Positions 40,817 to 48,938 of a stretch of 64,000 bases of DNA are shown piece after piece. Numbering within the stretch: position 1 is the first letter of the stretch; every line of letters begins with the position of its first letter. A program made the position numbers and the translations under genes. The notes under the pieces were generated by a model, which saw only the letters and a program-made list of their open reading frames with translations, was not told where the DNA came from and did no database searches. Origin of the DNA: Komarekiella atlantica HA4396-MV6 (GTDB taxonomy: Bacteria > Cyanobacteriota > Cyanobacteriia > Cyanobacteriales > Nostocaceae); assembly GCA_019359395.1 (NCBI GenBank), contig JAHHHK010000041.1:1-64000 (forward strand), read 5' to 3'.

Positions 40817-41089
40817 ATGAAATGCCCTCGAATTTGTAAGGCAAAAGCAATTAACGATCGCACCTTGGTGATTGAATTCACCAATCAAGAAGTCAAGAAA
40901 TATGATATTTTACATCTTTTAGAAAATCCCATGTTTGCTCCACTTCGTCAACCTGCATTTTTCAAGAACTTTAAGGTTGAGCAAGGGGGCTACGGGATTG
41001 TGTGGAATGAAGATATCGATCTGAGTGAGTATAAGCTTTGGAAAAATGGCATGACGGTGGCAGAAGGCGATCGCTCAGTTACGCTGTAA
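40817..41089 (+). CDS. DUF2442 protein
   Basis: A 90-residue protein. The N-terminal CPRICKAKAINDRTLVIEFTNQE and the central EVKKYDILHLLENPMFAPLR and FFKNFKVEQGGYGIVWNEDIDLS follow the DUF2442 pattern, a small beta-rich domain found alone or near toxin-antitoxin and nuclease genes. Function unknown. It is 114 bp upstream of the PLD-SNF2 helicase on the same strand, so it may belong to the same accessory unit, but it is also common as a free-standing gene. Confidence 0.82.
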   Translation: MKCPRICKAKAINDRTLVIEFTNQEVKKYDILHLLENPMFAPLRQPAFFKNFKVEQGGYGIVWNEDIDLSEYKLWKNGMTVAEGDRSVTL

Positions 41090-41202: not shown

Positions 41203-44200
41203 ATGCCACGCATTTTCGACAACATTGACTTACAATTGTTACCGATTTTGAGAGAGACTCTCAAAGTGTCTTATCGAGCGGATTTTTGCGTTGGCTACTT
41301 CAACCTTAGAGGTTGGCGGGGAATTGATGATTTGATTGAGCCTTATGTTGGCGGCGAAGGTTGTTGTTGCCGTTTGCTGATTGGGATGCAGAGTTTGCCT
41401 AGTGATGAAGTTCATGCGGCATTTACTCTTGGTAGTGGGAACGGGAGTATTGATAATAGTGCAATTGTTCGTTTGAAAAAACGGATGGCTGCGGAATTTC
41501 GCCAGCAGCTTACTATCGGTGCGCCTACTAATCAGGATGAAGCGGGGTTGCGGCGGTTAAGTCATCAGCTAAAAACTCAAAAAGTAATTCTTAAATTGTT
41601 TTTGCAGCACCCACTCCACGCTAAGTTGTATCTTGTGCATCGCAATGATGCCAACACTCCAATGGTGGGATTTTTGGGTAGCAGTAACTTGACTCTTTCA
41701 GGATTGGCGAAACAAGGGGAATTGAATGTTGATATTTTAGATCACGATGCTTGCAATAAATTGGAAAAATGGTTTGGCGATCGCTGGCAAGATTACGGTT
41801 GTATAGATATATCTAAAGAACTGGCAGAAATCATTGATGCAAGTTGGGCAAGAGCCGAATTAATCCCGCCATATCACATATATTTAAAGTTTGCTTATCA
41901 TTTATCTCACGAAGCGATCGCAGGATTGTCAGAATTTCGCATACCCCGCGAATTTAATAATTTATTTGATTTCCAAAAAGCCGCCGTGCAGCTAGCGGCG
42001 CGTCATGTCACAAGGCGCGGCGGTGTATTAGTTGGGGATATAGTTGGTTTAGGCAAAACTTTAGTGGGAACTGCTTTAGCGAAAATTTTACAAGAAGATT
42101 GTTACTTAGAAACGCTGATTATTTGCCCGAAAAACTTAGTAAAAATGTGGCAAGAATATGCTGATAAATATCGGCTATATGCCAAAGTTATGCCTAGTAG
42201 TCAAGTGCAGAGTCAATTACCAGAACTTCGCCGTTACCGAGTTGTGTTGATTGATGAAAGCCATAATTTGCGGAATCGTGAAGGGAAAAGATATCGTGCG
42301 ATCGCAGAATATATTACCGCTAATGAAAGTAAATGTATTCTCTTATCGGCAACACCTTATAACAAAACTTATCTTGATTTATCTGCCCAATTACGGTTAT
42401 TTGTGCTTGAAGATGAAGATTTGGGATTTCGACCAGAAGCCTTACTGAATGAATTAGGTGGAGAATTAGAGTTTATCAGAAGACATCAATGTTCTGTACG
42501 TTCTTTAGCTGCTTTTGAAAAGAGCGAATATGCCGATGACTGGCGAGAATTGATGAAACGTTACATGGTGCGGCGGACGCGATCGTTTATTAAAGATAAC
42601 TACGCCAACACTGATGAAACAGGGCGCAAATATCTTAAATTTTCTGATGGCAGACGTTCTTATTTTCCAGAGCGTAAACCTCGTACTGTCAAATTTACTT
42701 TAGAAAGTTCTCACGCTGACCCTTATTCTCATCTTTATTCCGAAGCAATTATAGAATTAATTAATCAACTTAATTTACCTCGTTATGGGCTAGGCAATTA
42801 CATTGCTGCTAAACACAAGCAACCACCCACAGAAGCAGAACAACGCGTATTGAGTGGGTTATTTCGTGGTGGAAAAAGGTTAATGGGATTTTCCCGCACT
42901 AACTTATTTAAACGCTTAGAAAGTAGTGGTATTGCTTTTATTCAATCAATTGAACGCCACATTTTACGGAACTTTATTTATTTAACTGCTATTGAAAAAG
43001 GGCTAGATATTCCTATAGGTACTCAAGAGGCTGATTTATTAGACACTCGCAATAATGATGAAGATGCAGATTCCGTAACAGCAACATTGTTTGATGCAGA
43101 AATAGAAGATGAGACAAATGTAGTAGATTTAGAAAATCAGTTATTGCAAGAGAAGAATTTTCGTCAACGTGCTGAGTCAGTTTACCAAGAATACACAACT
43201 CGATATAAACGACGATTTAAATGGCTGCGTTCTACACTATTTGATATTAAAAAGCTGAAGCAGGATTTGTTATCTGATGCTCAAGCATTGATTAATGTGC
43301 TGCAAAATTGTGGTGAATGGAATCCCAAGCATGATGAAAAACTTGCTGCTTTGGTTAAATTGCTAACGCAAACTCACCCTAATGATAAGGTACTAATATT
43401 CACACAGTTTGCTGATACAGTACGTTATCTTGCTGATAATTTACAGGCACTAAATATCACGAATATTGCAGGGGTAACAGGTCAATCTAAAGACCCAACA
43501 GAAATGACAGGAAGGTTTAGCCCGGTGAGTAATGGAATTCCTATCTCGCCATCAAGTGAATTACGTATTTTAATTGCCACCGATATTTTAAGTGAAGGTC
43601 ACAACCTACAAGACTGTGCAATTATAGTTAATTGGGATTTACCTTGGGCGATTATTCGCTTAATTCAACGGGCGGGACGGGTAGACCGAATTGGACAAAA
43701 AGCAGAACAAATTATCTGTTATTCTTTCTTGCCAGCCGAGGGAGTAGAACGTATTATTAATTTGCGGGAAAGACTGCGCCAGCGATTGCAAGAAAATGCT
43801 GAAGTTGTAGGAACTGATGAAGCATTTTTTGAAGACGATTCTACACAAGTAATTCTCGACCTCTACAACGAGAAATCTGGGATGTTGGATGGCGATGAGG
43901 ACACGGAAGTAGACTTGACATCGGAAGCTTTTCAAATTTGGAAAAAAGCTACAGATGACAATCCTGGTTTGAAGAAGACTATCGAAGAAATGTCTAATGT
44001 GGTTTATTCTACTCGTGCTCATATAGGTCAACCTATTCAACCAAACGGTGTATTGCTGTATATAAAAACCACTGAAGGTAATGATTCCTTGGTTTACGTT
44101 GACCGTGAAGGTAACAGCGTCACGCAGTCACAATTGGGAGTACTTCGGATGGCGGCGTGTGATGAATTTACTCCAGCAATCCCTAGAGATAAACAGCATC

Positions 44201-44568
44201 ACGAGTTAGTTAAAAAAGGTGTTGAATTGATTGCTGAAGAAGAAAAAAACGTAGGTGGTCAATTGGGACGACCATCAGGGGCGAGATTCAAAACTTATGA
44301 ACGACTTAAGAGCTATGCTCAAGAAATGAAGGGAACGTTATTTGTCACTGACGAACTTTTGAAGGCGATTGATGATATTTATCGTTACCCTTTGCGACAG
44401 TCAGCAATTGATACCCTCAACCGTCAACTAAGAAGTGGTATTAGTAATCAACAATTAGCAGAATTAGTAGTAGCGCTGCGGATGGATGACCGTTTGTGTA
44501 TTGTGAGTGAAGAAGTAGAGCACCGAGAGCCTCAGATTATTTGTTCGCTGGGATTATTTGAGGAATGA
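41203..44568 (+). CDS. PLD-domain SNF2 helicase, putative defence protein
   Basis: An 1121-residue protein. The first 200 residues are a phospholipase-D-type nuclease domain with a single HKD-like motif HAKLYLV (H139, K141) and GSSNLTLSG (about 159-167). The SNF2/SF2 helicase follows: motif I GDIVGLGKT (278-286), DESH (351-354), LLSATPYNK (about 381-389) and, in the second RecA lobe near residues 820-830, QRAGRVDRIGQ. A long insertion lies between the lobes, and a 250-residue C-terminal part of unknown fold ends the protein. The next gene is an N6-adenine methyltransferase in the same orientation. The pair looks like a restriction-type system in which the helicase-nuclease attacks unmodified DNA. 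DISARM class 1 drmD and type ISP enzymes have comparable helicase parts. Confidence 0.88.
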   Translation: MPRIFDNIDLQLLPILRETLKVSYRADFCVGYFNLRGWRGIDDLIEPYVGGEGCCCRLLIGMQSLPSDEVHAAFTLGSGNGSIDNSAIVRLKKRMAAEFRQQLTIGAPTNQDEAGLRRLSHQLKTQKVILKLFLQHPLHAKLYLVHRNDANTPMVGFLGSSNLTLSGLAKQGELNVDILDHDACNKLEKWFGDRWQDYGCIDISKELAEIIDASWARAELIPPYHIYLKFAYHLSHEAIAGLSEFRIPREFNNLFDFQKAAVQLAARHVTRRGGVLVGDIVGLGKTLVGTALAKILQEDCYLETLIICPKNLVKMWQEYADKYRLYAKVMPSSQVQSQLPELRRYRVVLIDESHNLRNREGKRYRAIAEYITANESKCILLSATPYNKTYLDLSAQLRLFVLEDEDLGFRPEALLNELGGELEFIRRHQCSVRSLAAFEKSEYADDWRELMKRYMVRRTRSFIKDNYANTDETGRKYLKFSDGRRSYFPERKPRTVKFTLESSHADPYSHLYSEAIIELINQLNLPRYGLGNYIAAKHKQPPTEAEQRVLSGLFRGGKRLMGFSRTNLFKRLESSGIAFIQSIERHILRNFIYLTAIEKGLDIPIGTQEADLLDTRNNDEDADSVTATLFDAEIEDETNVVDLENQLLQEKNFRQRAESVYQEYTTRYKRRFKWLRSTLFDIKKLKQDLLSDAQALINVLQNCGEWNPKHDEKLAALVKLLTQTHPNDKVLIFTQFADTVRYLADNLQALNITNIAGVTGQSKDPTEMTGRFSPVSNGIPISPSSELRILIATDILSEGHNLQDCAIIVNWDLPWAIIRLIQRAGRVDRIGQKAEQIICYSFLPAEGVERIINLRERLRQRLQENAEVVGTDEAFFEDDSTQVILDLYNEKSGMLDGDEDTEVDLTSEAFQIWKKATDDNPGLKKTIEEMSNVVYSTRAHIGQPIQPNGVLLYIKTTEGNDSLVYVDREGNSVTQSQLGVLRMAACDEFTPAIPRDKQHHELVKKGVELIAEEEKNVGGQLGRPSGARFKTYERLKSYAQEMKGTLFVTDELLKAIDDIYRYPLRQSAIDTLNRQLRSGISNQQLAELVVALRMDDRLCIVSEEVEHREPQIICSLGLFEE

Positions 44569-44608
44569 TACTAATTCGTAATTCGTAATTAAGGGAAGAC
44601 GTAGCCAG

Positions 44609-44813
44609 TAGGTTGGGTTGAGGAACGAAACCCAACATTAATAAACCTAAGCATTGTTGGGTTTCACTCCGTTCAACCCAACTTACAGTACTGAAGTGCT
44701 TACTACGAACCTCTCAAAACTTTTGCAACAGACTAGTAGGTTGGGTTGAGGAACGAAACCCAACATTAATAACCTAAGCATTGTTGGGTTTCACTCCGTT
44801 CAACCCAACCTAC
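44609..44813. repeat. Two copies of a GTTGGGTTGAGG / CAACCCAAC hairpin repeat
   Basis: Near-identical hairpin units lie at 44609-44686 and 44737-44813, each beginning TAGGTTGGGTTGAGGAACG and ending in its inverse. Each has GTTGGGTTT paired with AAACCCAAC across a short middle. They separate the helicase gene from the 21-bp array and may terminate its transcript. Confidence 0.8.
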
Positions 44814-44831
44814 ACTACTACACTACTAAAA

Positions 44832-45158
44832 ATGAGAAAGCATTCAAGTATTTTGAGAAAGTCAAATGCCTTTTTGCTTACGGAATATACCAAAATGAGT
44901 AGGCATTTAAAGCTTTTGCTTGCGGAATATACCAAAATGAGTAAGCATTTGAGGCTTTTGCTTGCGGAATACACCAAAATGAGTAAGCATTTAAAGCTTT
45001 TGAGTAAGTATTTAAAGCTTTTGCTTGCGGAATACACCAAAATGAGTAAGCATTTAAAGCTTTTGAGTAAGTCAAACCTGCTTTTGAGAAAGCATTTAAG
45101 TATTTTGCGAAAGCATTTAACCATTTTGAGCAAGCAATTAGGCATTTTGATAAAGTAA
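44832..45158 (+). CDS. Possible heptad-repeat peptide between helicase and methyltransferase
   Basis: An ORF of 108 residues from the ATG at 44832 that translates a 21-bp repeat array into heptads: RKHSSIL, RKSNAFL, LTEYTKM, SRHLKLL, LAEYTKM, SKHLRLL and so on, ending SKQLGIL-IK-stop. The last position of nearly every heptad is Leu or Met, and Lys/His dominate. This is strongly suggestive of an amphipathic or coiled-coil design, but the reverse strand is also open, so translation is uncertain. No strong ribosome-binding site. It may be a structural peptide or a noncoding minisatellite. Confidence 0.35.
   Translation: MRKHSSILRKSNAFLLTEYTKMSRHLKLLLAEYTKMSKHLRLLLAEYTKMSKHLKLLSKYLKLLLAEYTKMSKHLKLLSKSNLLLRKHLSILRKHLTILSKQLGILIK
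44834..45148. repeat. Fifteen degenerate 21-bp units
   Basis: Fifteen consecutive units of exactly 21 bp fill 44834-45148. Two subtypes interleave: one like GAGTAAGCATTTAAAGC and one like GCTTGCGGAATACACC. The three full 42-bp pairs suggest expansion by two-unit steps, while single-unit repeats appear at both ends. There are no spacers. After the array 45149-45434 shows no gene; the methyltransferase promoter should lie there. Confidence 0.9.
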
Positions 45159-45434
45159 TCAGCAAATATACCTGATGATTAAAAATCGCGTCTGTACAAA
45201 TGAAGCCGGCGCTTAAATAACTCAATAACTTTCAGTATATTTTCTCAACTGTAAATAAGGATAAAGGATTTATAAAGTATAGAAAGCATGGTTTAAATAA
45301 AAAAATTTAACTCGTCTAAAAAGGGTTTATTAAAGTCCGCCTACGCAGACTTAATTTTAGAGCCACAGATTTATTTTCTGAATGGCAAGTTTACCATGCT
45401 TGGTTTTTATTTTCCAAGTTATTTACGGTAAATT

Positions 45435-48400
45435 ATGTCACTTAATTTTCAACGAACACGCGATTTTCTCTATAACTTCCAATTTAATGATTTGTTTATA
45501 AAAGAGTTAGGTTGGTCACAACCTTCAAAGAAAAAAACTCTTTCGTTGGAAGTTGACGAAAAGACGTATCACTACAAAAGTATTGCTGAAATTTCGGGAG
45601 TTGCTGTATTTGAGGTTGTAGCAGCAGATGGCGCAATTCCAGAAGCTAAAGTTAGAGTTGAAATTTACAAAGAAATTACTAAATTAATCAATGAAAATCT
45701 GCTGATTTTTATTGATGAAGAACGTACACGCAGTCTTTGGTATTGGGTAAAAAGAGAAGATAGTAAAAGTTATATCCGCGACCATTTATATGTGAAAGGT
45801 CAACCGGGAGACTTATTTTTAAGTAAGCTTGGTTCTTTAGTTATTGAGATTGCTGAATTAGAATCTGGTGAGCCGACTGTTATAGAAATTGCCCATAAGT
45901 TGCAAAAAGCTCTGGATGTCGAGCCAGTAACTAAAAAGTTTTACAAGGAATTTCAAGAGCAACACCAGAAGTTTTTGCAGTTTGTTAAAGGAATTAGTAA
46001 CGAAGTAGATAGACGTTGGTACACATCGGTAATTCTCAATCGCCTGATGTTCGTTTATTTTCTCCAGCGTAAGGGTTTTATTGATAACCAGGATTTAAAC
46101 TATTTACAAAATAAGTTAGAACAAAGTCAGCAAAAAGGTGAAGATTTATTCTATGATGAATTTCTTCAGGCGTTATTTTTTGAAAGCTTTGCTAAACCTG
46201 AGATAGACCGAGATTCATCAGTTCAAAATTTGGTAGGAAAGGTTAAATATCTCAATGGTGGATTATTTCTTCAACATCGTATTGAAAAAGATTATAAGAT
46301 TTTTATAGCTGATAAGGCGTTTGAGCAAGTTTTAGATTTATTTAAGCGTTATTCTTGGAATCTGGATGATACGCCAGAGGGTAAAGATGATGAAATAAAC
46401 CCTGATGTTTTAGGATATATTTTTGAAAAATATATTAATCAAAAAGCGTTCGGTGCGTATTATACTAGACCGCAAATTACAGAATATCTCTGTGATAAAA
46501 CTATTCACAAATTAATTGTAGACCGTGTAAATAATCGGCTGTCTGATAGTGAGAAGTCATTTGAGGATATTAATGAACTAATCATCAAACTGGATGCAAA
46601 TATTTGCTATCTGTTAATTGATGATATTCTCCCCAATTTATCAATTCTTGACCCGGCTTGTGGTTCAGGTGCGTTTCTTGTAGCGGCGATGAAGACGCTA
46701 ATTCAAGTTTATAGTGCGGTGATTGGGTCAATTGAGTTGATGGGAGAAGAGACGCAAAGTTTTGCAGTTTTACAGGAAATAAAAAACTCTCATGCATCGT
46801 TAGATTATTATATTAAAAAACGTATTGTTACTGATAACCTCTATGGTGTAGACATTATGGAGGAAGCAACAGAAATTGCAAAGCTGCGTTTGTTTCTAGC
46901 GTTGGTTTCTTCTGCTAAAAATGTCGGTGAGTTGGAACCGTTGCCGAATATTGACTTTAATATTATGGCTGGTAATTCGCTGATTGGGTTAATTCGGGTT
47001 GATGAAACAGCGTTTGATATGGTTGGAAATTCGCTACAAGGCAATCTTTTACAAACATTAGCAGCCGATAATTACAAGAAAATATTAGAAGAGAAGAATA
47101 AATCAATTGAATCTTACAAAGAATATGCCTTTTTTCCTCAGAATTTACCTCACACAGATACACCTAAAGATACTTGTTTGAGACATCTACGCAGAAGTAT
47201 TGAACAACTAAACAGTAAATCGGAAAAGAACTTAAATCTTTTATTACTGGATGAGTTTAGTAAGCGTTTGGGTATCAAGTATGAGGAAGTGCAGTTATCT
47301 GGAAAATCACAGAAACGTGTATTAAAGGTTGAGGATATTGCAGCGCTGAAGCCTTTTCACTGGGGTTATCACTTTGATAAGGTTTTAGAACGCGGTGGCT
47401 TTGATGCGATTATTACTAATCCACCGTGGGAGATATTTAAGCCGCAAGCTAAAGAGTTCTTTGCACAGCATAATGAACTGGTGACGAAGAACAAAATGGA
47501 TATCAAGGCTTTTGAGAAAGAGCAGAACAAACTATTACAAAAACCTGAGATTGCTAACGCTTGGTTAGAATATCAGAGTAAATATCCTTATTTAAGTGCT
47601 TATTATCGTTCATCTGAGCAGTATAAAAATCAGATTTCTATTGTTAATGGCAAAAAAGCAGGGACGGATATTAATTTATATAAGTTGTTTGTAGAACAAT
47701 GTTTTAATCTTTTGCGTTCGGGTGGCGAGTGTGGAATTGTGATTCCTAGCGGTATCTACACTGATTTGGGAACTAAGCAATTGCGGGAGATGTTGTTTAA
47801 TCAAACAAAAGTTACTGGTTTATTCTGCTTTGAGAATCGCAAGACAATATTTGAAGGTGTTGATAGTCGGTTTAAGTTTGTTATTCTTTCTTTTGAAAAA
47901 GATAATACAACAACAGAATTTCCATCGGCTTTTATGCGTCTTGATGTGAATGAACTTGAAAGGTTTCCTAATGATCATAGCTTGCAGATTAGCGTTGACA
48001 TGGTGCGTCAACTCTCGCCTGATTCACTATCTGTAATGGAGTTTAAGAATGAGGTGGATATCCGCATTTCTAGGAAAATGCTTAAGTTTCCTTTGCTGGG
48101 AGAAAAGATTGAGGGTAAGTGGAATTTGCACTTAACTCGCGAATTTGATATGACGAATGATAGTCATTTATTTAAGCAACAGTCGAGTAAAGGAAGATTA
48201 CCACTTTATGAAGGCAAGATGATTCATCAGTTCACTCATCTATATGCTGAACCAAGGTATTGGGTTGATGAACAGGAAGCGAGGAAAGCTTTATTAGGAC
48301 GAAATGAAAGTGATACCAATCAAAAATTAGATTATCAATTTTTTCGGCTGGGATTTCGTGATATTGCTAGTAATACCAATGAAAGGACGATGATTTCGTC

Positions 48401-48938
48401 TATCATTCCTCCTACTTTTCACGGTAACAAGATTCCAACAGCAAAAATATTCGATCAGCAAGGAAAACTGCTAATAGATAATGTTAGTCAATTATTTCTC
48501 TGTGCAGTCTGGAACACCTTCATTCTAGACTGGCTTTTACGAACAAAAGTTACTACGACATTAAATTACTTTTATATATACCAGCTACCAGTACCGCGAT
48601 TAACGAAAAGCGATCGCTACTTCAATGACATAGTACAACGCGCCGCTAAACTAATATGTACCACACCAGAATTTGACGAACTCGCGCAAGAAGTCGGGTT
48701 ATCCCACAAACAAGGCGTTACCGACGAGACAGAACGCGCTCAGCTACGAGCAGAACTCGACGGCATGATAGCGCACCTTTACGGTTTAACTGAAGAAGAG
48801 TTTAGCTACATTTTGACAACTTTCCCTATTGTTCCTGAATCTGTCAAACAGGCAGCATTGGAAGCTTACCGCATCTTTGCACCGCAACTTAAACGTAGAA
48901 ATTGCGGTATGAACTCAATAGACCTGTCTATAAAATAA
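45435..48938 (+). CDS. Eco57I-class N6-adenine DNA methyltransferase
   Basis: An 1167-residue protein. The N-terminal 330 residues are a divergent domain with no complete nuclease motif that I can see. The methyltransferase core has motif I LDPACGSGAFLVA (about 405-417), YGVDIMEEATEIAKLRL near 470, and the catalytic ITNPPW (about 660-666) of gamma-class N6-adenine enzymes. The last 450 residues, including LPLYEGKMIHQFTH and LPVPRL, probably form the target recognition region as in type IIG, type IIL and PglX enzymes. It follows the PLD-SNF2 helicase in the same direction and would protect host DNA. It is near the drmMI gene of DISARM in size and class. Confidence 0.88.
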   Translation: MSLNFQRTRDFLYNFQFNDLFIKELGWSQPSKKKTLSLEVDEKTYHYKSIAEISGVAVFEVVAADGAIPEAKVRVEIYKEITKLINENLLIFIDEERTRSLWYWVKREDSKSYIRDHLYVKGQPGDLFLSKLGSLVIEIAELESGEPTVIEIAHKLQKALDVEPVTKKFYKEFQEQHQKFLQFVKGISNEVDRRWYTSVILNRLMFVYFLQRKGFIDNQDLNYLQNKLEQSQQKGEDLFYDEFLQALFFESFAKPEIDRDSSVQNLVGKVKYLNGGLFLQHRIEKDYKIFIADKAFEQVLDLFKRYSWNLDDTPEGKDDEINPDVLGYIFEKYINQKAFGAYYTRPQITEYLCDKTIHKLIVDRVNNRLSDSEKSFEDINELIIKLDANICYLLIDDILPNLSILDPACGSGAFLVAAMKTLIQVYSAVIGSIELMGEETQSFAVLQEIKNSHASLDYYIKKRIVTDNLYGVDIMEEATEIAKLRLFLALVSSAKNVGELEPLPNIDFNIMAGNSLIGLIRVDETAFDMVGNSLQGNLLQTLAADNYKKILEEKNKSIESYKEYAFFPQNLPHTDTPKDTCLRHLRRSIEQLNSKSEKNLNLLLLDEFSKRLGIKYEEVQLSGKSQKRVLKVEDIAALKPFHWGYHFDKVLERGGFDAIITNPPWEIFKPQAKEFFAQHNELVTKNKMDIKAFEKEQNKLLQKPEIANAWLEYQSKYPYLSAYYRSSEQYKNQISIVNGKKAGTDINLYKLFVEQCFNLLRSGGECGIVIPSGIYTDLGTKQLREMLFNQTKVTGLFCFENRKTIFEGVDSRFKFVILSFEKDNTTTEFPSAFMRLDVNELERFPNDHSLQISVDMVRQLSPDSLSVMEFKNEVDIRISRKMLKFPLLGEKIEGKWNLHLTREFDMTNDSHLFKQQSSKGRLPLYEGKMIHQFTHLYAEPRYWVDEQEARKALLGRNESDTNQKLDYQFFRLGFRDIASNTNERTMISSIIPPTFHGNKIPTAKIFDQQGKLLIDNVSQLFLCAVWNTFILDWLLRTKVTTTLNYFYIYQLPVPRLTKSDRYFNDIVQRAAKLICTTPEFDELAQEVGLSHKQGVTDETERAQLRAELDGMIAHLYGLTEEEFSYILTTFPIVPESVKQAALEAYRIFAPQLKRRNCGMNSIDLSIK

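Follow-up and report, generated by a model that had tools for sequence, protein, structure and literature searches.

The 64,000-nucleotide stretch analysed here, called the window, comprises positions 1 to 64,000 of contig JAHHHK010000041.1 from the cyanobacterium Komarekiella atlantica HA4396-MV6 (assembly GCA_019359395.1). On its forward strand it carries neighbouring genes for a PLD nuclease-SNF2 helicase fusion (P0001, the PLD-SNF2 protein) and an Eco57I-class N6-adenine methyltransferase (P0002, the methylase). With a probability of roughly 0.7, both products constitute a split, two-component and ATP-dependent restriction-modification system, resembling the Type ISP and Type I systems and belonging to neither. 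This reading draws on comparisons of homologous sequences, in which the genes are paired, the catalytic motifs are conserved, the PLD-SNF2 protein co-varies with one half of the methylase only and the recognition half is swapped. The pair is widespread and apparently unnamed: no description of such a pair without DUF499 was found in the literature searched, which was partly available as excerpts and lay outside REBASE and most subscription papers. The original prediction had proposed a minimal two-gene restriction system, and the comparative data support a restriction-modification-like module, DNA restriction itself being what we infer from them.

Conservation and linkage of the two genes

In P0001, the Pfam domains PLDc_2 (residues 27-195), RE_NgoFVII (121-191), SNF2-rel (334-494) and Helicase_C (712-831) are found, and the motifs HAK139, GSSN159, Walker A, DESH351 and RAGRVDR823 are intact. 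The PLD domain was assigned by sequence profiles, and the structure comparison covered the SNF2 core, which matches a Sulfolobus SWI2/SNF2 protein (VIA-align Z 18.3, rmsd 18.9, 388 aligned) and SRCAP 8x19 (Z 17.6, rmsd 3.7, 409 aligned). In an alignment of 60 PLD-SNF2 sequences (75 rows hand-thinned to 59, plus the window), with a mean column identity of 56%, GSSN is present in 60/60 and both HAK and DESHN in 59/60. Nine aligned divergent cyanobacterial relatives also retain HxK...GSSN, one of them as HGK. The nuclease and motor motifs of P0001 are thus conserved beyond chance. P0002 matches the Pfam families Eco57I and N6_Mtase and contains DPACGSG406 and NPPW662. The predicted fusion beside a same-strand methyltransferase, with its coordinates, reading frames, domains and motifs, is therefore borne out, as is the conservation of its catalytic residues among relatives.

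Of 292 cyanobacterial genomes surveyed (E≤1e-30), 51 have PLD-SNF2 relatives and 50 have relatives of the methylase. Among 41 cyanobacterial loci (31 close, 9 divergent and the window), the PLD-SNF2 cluster is represented in 41 and the methylase cluster in 40, and the methylase is present in 30 of the 31 close loci, fragments being counted in both cases. Conversely, for 19 of 20 cyanobacterial methylases scoring above 1000 bits (window included), a PLD-SNF2 gene is found at most 5 kb away on their contig; in the exception, G229, the partners lie on different contigs. A wider set of 85 loci consisted of the best 80 of at least 585 confirmed GTDB relatives plus the five strong IMG/VR matches (a further eight were weak) and spans 21 phylum-level groups, which were assigned by the author from record names, some of these at genus level only. 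A methylase or a piece of one is encoded on the same strand in 77/85 loci, downstream in 75 and upstream in two. Because of this same-strand linkage, P0001 and P0002 are regarded, on genomic evidence, as one system, and the co-occurrence expected of a defence module is found. The script-called gap between both genes is at most 30 bp in 41/85 loci, some starts being over-called, and on Pelobacter pPRO1 the two genes directly adjoin each other and are preceded by a recombinase gene. The pair is also carried on plasmids and viral contigs.

The methylase is lost or damaged more than once. Within the genus, the site is occupied in the window genome (G000), G292 and G294, and in G295 only 121-bp and 141-bp methylase scars remain between ruvC and the histidine kinase gene. 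The G292 methylase lacks residues ~306-910 and that of G294 residues 1-180; their PLD-SNF2 genes are open, with dN/dS values against the window of 0.077 and 0.084, respectively, pairwise estimates that do not date the methylase loss. On a Paenarthrobacter plasmid, the methylase is split by an IS3 transposase next to a full-length helicase gene, and in the wider set the methylase is broken or absent in 6 of 77 loci having a PLD-SNF2 protein of at least 1050 aa. Since the reading frame is kept where the methylase is broken, these sequences suggest that the PLD-SNF2 protein is non-toxic without it, as expected if the methylase is needed to find DNA, which would correspond to the logic of Type I and Type ISP systems.

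Two methylase classes and the proposed mechanism

Methylases shorter than 1000 or longer than 1360 aa or running off their contig were dropped, leaving 53 homologues plus the window. Seventeen of these are window-like with NPPW (class A, 17/17) and 36 belong to class B, with NPPY in 34. The residues of class B identical to the window amount to 43-63% at positions 201-350 versus 3-19% at 701-1150. A Mantel test and a class tree were based on 15 class A and 32 class B pairs for which both partners were aligned. Within the classes, PLD-SNF2 distances correlate with those of methylase residues 1-560 (rho 0.42-0.83), whereas residues 901-1150 show no correlation in either class A (rho -0.005) or class B (rho -0.108), and neither do residues 600-900 in class A (rho 0.075). 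Saturation is not the explanation for this lost C-terminal correlation, because the two methylase ends have diverged to a similar degree in class A. Nine changes of the class label are counted on the PLD-SNF2 tree, at least six of them forced by the starred branches; the class switches, for example, between the sister rows L148/L125 and L165/L144. Judged from these alignments, the recognition end comes in two unrelated classes, with six or more exchanges between them. Most simply, the methylase would consist of a docking half that tracks the restriction subunit and a recognition end that can be exchanged. This would be a clear case of specificity apparently being swapped through part of the methylase with an unchanged cutting subunit.

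The best Foldseek match of the P0002 model is BrxX, to which residues 162-1134 align from BrxX residue 1 onwards (9ewz; VIA-align Z 25.8, rmsd 5.7, 670 aligned). The fold also matches LlaGI (5ffj; Z 24.2, rmsd 6.0, 572 aligned), LlaBIII (Z 23.8, rmsd 5.9, 556 aligned), MmeI and HsdM. Residues 1-161 lie outside these matches, which start near residue 162 or, in one case, at 112, and in the AlphaFold2 (AF2) model their order of helices and strands is compatible with a PD-(D/E)XK fold. Neither columns 40-124 of the 53 homologues nor a majority consensus built from 32 sequences (residues 1-165) showed a conserved (D/E)xK motif, and a profile search of the N-terminus against PDB sequences gave a best E of 1.2.

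According to the proposed mechanism, the C-terminal half of P0002 would bind an asymmetric DNA target and methylate one adenine, marking self DNA. P0001 would dock onto the conserved N-terminal half of P0002, and a bound site that is unmethylated would license the SNF2 motor to move along the DNA, upon which the PLD domain would cut. As a single HKD motif is found, the PLD domain probably acts as a dimer. The methylase would supply the specificity, to be altered by a swap of its recognition half. Docking, translocation, cleavage and phage defence are accordingly putative functions of the pair.

A related pair is present on plasmid pSYSX of Synechocystis PCC 6803, where SGL_RS01585 (PLD-SNF2, 54% identical) is followed on the same strand by SGL_RS01600, a class B-like methylase, with a hypothetical gene and a VapC gene between them. 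According to the accessible parts of two papers, M.Ssp6803IV and M.Ssp6803V are located on pSYSX (PMC6604393), M.Ssp6803V is tied to Type I genes and M.Ssp6803IV targets GA-m6A-GGC (m6A, N6-methyladenine), which is methylated at 1446/1451 sites (PMC7296061). Among the pSYSX genes listed, with ~950 bases uncovered and incomplete PLSDB tables, the annotated DNA methylases are SGL_RS01600 and a Type I one. Because pSYSX carries IV and V, of which V belongs to the Type I genes, SGL_RS01600 is probably M.Ssp6803IV. The asymmetric target of this homologue, as given in the accessible text, fits the one-strand m6A motif expected by the original prediction. Like the window, this locus has a homologous methylase and a PLD-SNF2 gene on the same strand; M.Ssp6803IV, however, is treated as a single enzyme, and the literature searched, in so far as it was accessible, makes no mention of a PLD-SNF2 partner. 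Its recognition end is unrelated to that of the window methylase, and a different target is expected. The Synechocystis methylase is matched over its full length by the PADLOC Type IIG model PDLC03628 (2661.8 bits), and for this reason the methylase, taken by itself, would be classed as Type IIG. A direct match to a characterised component was found for the methylase half only, namely to the probable M.Ssp6803IV, filed alone as Type IIG. Also on pSYSX, a duplicated segment (L112:11348-20500, L113:9967-19119) holds an AAA/DUF2357/PLD gene set which is McrBC- or CoCoNuT-like by annotation.

If the two-component reading is true, annotation has divided a widespread defence system, with its methylase recorded as a lone Type IIG enzyme (PADLOC) and its motor as a 'helicase-related protein' (public records). 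A methylation mark known from Synechocystis, a model cyanobacterium, would gain its cutting partner, and a removable transformation barrier would be named for many hard-to-engineer bacteria.

Comparison with known systems and alternative explanations

Class 1 DISARM likewise combines an SNF2 helicase and a PglX-like adenine methylase (DrmD and DrmMI). However, P0001 scores 133.6 bits against the DrmD family, far below the cut-off of 610. It falls in another clade, and no DISARM match, including drmA, drmB and drmC, occurs among the ten genes flanking the pair (34-54 kb), in agreement with the predicted absence of drmABC (DrmA and DrmC were not sought genome-wide). Membership in class 1 DISARM was rejected on these grounds. 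A strict HxK...GSxN pattern is absent in 7/7 DrmD proteins, but it missed 2/3 NF042964 proteins too and is too strict as stand-alone evidence. In a tree of 52 proteins (every third row of alignment A3 plus six others), the 26 core PLD-SNF2 rows are united in a single group (SH-aLRT 100) that excludes the DrmD and NF042964 rows and has divergent C3a139-like PLD-SNF2 proteins as neighbours. As other parts of this tree contain adjoining long branches, its deep order is unsure.

The BREX-related Type-2 system also has an HKD/PLD nuclease N-terminal to an SNF2 helicase, together with an N6 methylase, and, as the available text describes it, consists of an HKD-helicase, DUF499, an N6-methyltransferase and DUF3780 (PMC12839542). 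It was rejected since a genome-wide search gave no DUF499 match (a control in Thermotoga maritima was positive), and P0001 reaches 155.3 bits against the NF042964 PLD-helicase (cut-off 1100) and lies in a separate clade. BREX itself was rejected because of the genome-wide absence of PglZ matches, with positive controls in Sulfolobus acidocaldarius and Methanosarcina acetivorans. ARMADA (ArmA and ArmB) shares the SNF2 helicase and PglX-like methylase but is built, according to the accessible part of its description, around a YprA-like helicase (PMC12458937). No such helicase is found in the ten flanking genes, and ARMADA was rejected; the MZB domain is found only on contig C72. Two MZB-domain proteins are encoded there (at 122857 and 172455, open frames of 2126 and 908 aa), which are possible YprA-type helicases, the MZB domain being a mark of DrmB and YprA proteins. 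HsdS and HsdR, which accompany HsdM in Type I systems, gave no match in P0001-P0003 or the ten flanking genes.

The Type ISP enzymes LlaGI and LlaBIII share the fold of methylase and target recognition domain with P0002, although other adenine methylases score as high. Type ISP enzymes unite nuclease, motor, methylase and target recognition domain in one chain, whereas the window system has two open reading frames with a PLD nuclease and an SNF2 motor. In Type ISP enzymes, the nuclease is an Mrr-like PD-(D/E)XK domain. Their site-bound methylase licenses the ATP-driven motor and the nuclease, a logic that is also predicted for the window pair. The PADLOC family nearest to P0001 is C3a139 'HKD+Snf2' (150 bits); three divergent relatives score higher (175-287 bits) and fall outside the core PLD-SNF2 clade. 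Divergent PLD-SNF2 proteins (L093-L101, L108, L111) also pair with methylases, often with the methylase first and an extra gene between, and such pairs are a second branch of the same idea.

Several alternatives were weighed against the split restriction-modification system. It is unlikely that the PLD-SNF2 protein recognises and cuts DNA alone, as a Type II-like or modification-sensing enzyme, with a methylase that only shields the host. Its reading frame is kept in several loci that have no intact methylase, which would suit a stand-alone enzyme, but the repeated methylase damage in G292, L107 and L115 should then be lethal, and its sequence is well conserved (56% mean column identity) though the recognition ends of its partners are unrelated. 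M.Ssp6803IV is reportedly slr6050 and is said to be essential. Such essentiality would favour a cutting partner yet fits badly with a strictly methylase-dependent nuclease, and it would suggest that the PLD-SNF2 protein is able to act without the methylase in Synechocystis. In the accessible text of PMC12024952, a crucial role in growth is ascribed to M.Ssp6803IV. Slightly more doubtful still is a system that blocks phage in the manner of BREX or DISARM, with no cleavage guided by the methylase, or else what is left of a larger system of the BREX-related or ARMADA kind. BrxX as best Foldseek match and the relatedness of the PLD-SNF2 protein to DrmD and NF042964 proteins speak for it. The genome, on the other hand, has neither DUF499 nor PglZ, no third gene recurs among 54 neighbours (families listed), and a clade of its own, whose catalytic residues are intact in 21 phylum-level groups, is unlike a remnant.

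A self-contained Type IIG methylase with a PLD-SNF2 neighbour of separate role is very improbable. The end-to-end PDLC03628 match would agree with it, but a lone Type IIG enzyme was rejected as no conserved (D/E)xK was seen in the N-terminal columns and consensus; the near-constant linkage and the co-variation of the N-terminal half with the PLD-SNF2 protein also argue against it. An epigenetic or DNA-maintenance pair with no defence role deserves equally little credence. The housekeeping-type neighbours in the window, which form no defence island, point that way; the patchy presence, including G295 with its two scars, the carriage on plasmids and viral contigs, the recognition-end swapping and the defence-type accessories at other loci point away from it.

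Besides the growth role of M.Ssp6803IV, a number of observations weigh against the reading as a split restriction-modification system. The highest structural Z of P0002 is that to CamA (28.6, rmsd 4.7, 498 aligned), a lone methylase, so that its fold alone cannot tell restriction from lone methylation. Where an open PLD-SNF2 gene lies beside a broken methylase, the nuclease may already have been silent, and one of the 60 PLD-SNF2 sequences has HTK instead of HAK. In class B, residues 600-900 of the methylase correlate weakly with the PLD-SNF2 protein (rho 0.225, p 0.006), and the A/B labels are somewhat clustered on its tree (2-4 of 500 shuffles gave an equally low value). As for the linkage, L065 is without a methylase (its contig ends ~1.6 kb downstream), as are 8/85 wider loci; four of the latter (L156, L171, L176 and L190) stop at a contig edge and the other four continue (L145, L166, L147 with 0.98 kb left and L178 with 2.2 kb left). 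In L151 and L167, the methylase piece is upstream, several cyanobacteria have a reversed gene order, L196 has a second methylase-like match, and in PCC 7339 an intact methylase lies on the opposite strand 3.2 kb away from a truncated PLD-SNF2 gene. The same-genus genome G293 has no pair, its site being uninformative with ruvC and the kinase gene on different contigs. Lastly, DprA-like genes, typical of class B surroundings (see below), occur further downstream in two class A loci.

Accessory genes and the locus in the window

Of 91 large flanking open reading frames in the wider loci, the 54 on the + strand (≥500 aa) were scanned. Among the families listed, the commonest Pfam family occurs in 3/54 and every PADLOC family in 1/54, with one-off defence matches to GajA, pAgo, HEC-05 and PDC-S06. 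A third essential component was rejected, as no partner gene recurs among these large same-strand neighbours. Certain accessories nevertheless follow the methylase class. An OLD-like ATPase lies immediately downstream in 7/17 class A loci vs 0/36 of class B (Fisher p 1.3e-4), accompanied by DUF4276 in 6/7 cases. A DprA-like gene lies at most three genes and 1.5 kb away in 16/36 class B loci vs 0/17 of class A (p 8e-4), and anywhere downstream in 22/36 and 2/17, respectively. A DprA/PsyrA-like gene is a possible frequent third component of class B loci. The chances are about even that the pairs represent a hitherto undescribed kind of ATP-dependent restriction-modification system, made of two subunits and occurring in 21 or more phylum-level groups, with one conserved PLD-SNF2 subunit, two unrelated recognition ends on one docking half and a tendency of each recognition class to recruit its own accessories (DprA-like with B, OLD-like ATPase plus DUF4276 with A). 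In that case, a number of methylases now taken as orphans or as Type IIG enzymes would each be one half of a cleaving system.

The OLD-like ATPase (HEC-01A-like) follows the class A methylase in L119, L130, L150, L170, L174, L179 and L189, and also in L104, with a DUF4276 gene (HEC-01B-like) beside it in all of these except L150, and it overlaps the methylase by 4 bp in 4/7 GTDB cases. In L207, two hypothetical genes of similar size are located where this pair would be. The DprA/PsyrA-like gene is on the same strand downstream in L120:14714-15349 and 21 more class B loci. Genes between or beside the cyanobacterial pairs vary among loci; from inspection by eye, we take them to be DUF29, Uma2-like, MNT, PIN, XisI and Rpn-like genes. 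PIN/VapC-type genes lie between the partners in several phyla (L102:11707-12120, annotated; L127:11647-12042, Pfam; L159:11696-12100, by eye).

The window pair is found on contig C21 of the 7.78-Mb genome, and both genes are open from ATG to stop (Table 1). The ten flanking genes are of housekeeping types (RuvC, TsaE, CofD, signal peptidases, a histidine kinase, ExbB/ExbD and others), and neither an OLD-like ATPase/DUF4276 nor a DprA-like gene adjoins the pair.

Table 1. Features of the PLD-SNF2/methylase locus in the window
Feature	Position	Strand	Basis
P0001, PLD-SNF2 protein, predicted nuclease and ATP-dependent DNA motor, 1121 aa	41203..44568	+	AF2 pLDDT 78.8, pTM 0.69
PLD nuclease domain, residues 27-195	41281..41787	+	PF13091 35.2 bits (cut-off 27); PF09565 RE_NgoFVII 26.8 bits (cut-off 23.8)
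Single HxK...GSSN catalytic motif, residues 139-162	41617..41688	+	alignment of 60 sequences
SWI2/SNF2 ATPase core, residues ~237-904	41911..43914	+	VIA-align, PF00176, PF00271
P0002, Eco57I/BrxX-like N6-adenine methyltransferase, 1167 aa	45435..48938	+	AF2 pLDDT 85.4, pTM 0.78
P0002 N-terminal extra domain, residues 1-161	45435..45917	+	no conserved (D/E)xK motif seen
P0002 HsdM-like helical domain, methyltransferase core and target recognition region, residues 162-1134	45918..48836	+	VIA-align
P0002 S-adenosylmethionine-binding motif I DPACGSG	46650..46670	+	sequence motif
P0002 catalytic motif IV NPPW	47418..47429	+	17/17 class A homologues; class B NPPY 34/36

The genes had been predicted to sit side by side. 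They are indeed same-strand neighbours, but they are not tightly spaced: an 866-bp gap separates them, a loose arrangement compared with the often tight one in other genomes. This spacer contains a 21-bp repeat array (44872-45155) and short inverted repeats. A 125-aa open reading frame at 44781-45158 was rejected as a gene since it derives from the repeat array. Bases 44567-44823 are unaligned with G292, which has different bases there, and the repeat array does align with that same-genus genome and is possibly regulatory. Immediately upstream of P0001, a DUF2442 gene is located at 40817-41089.

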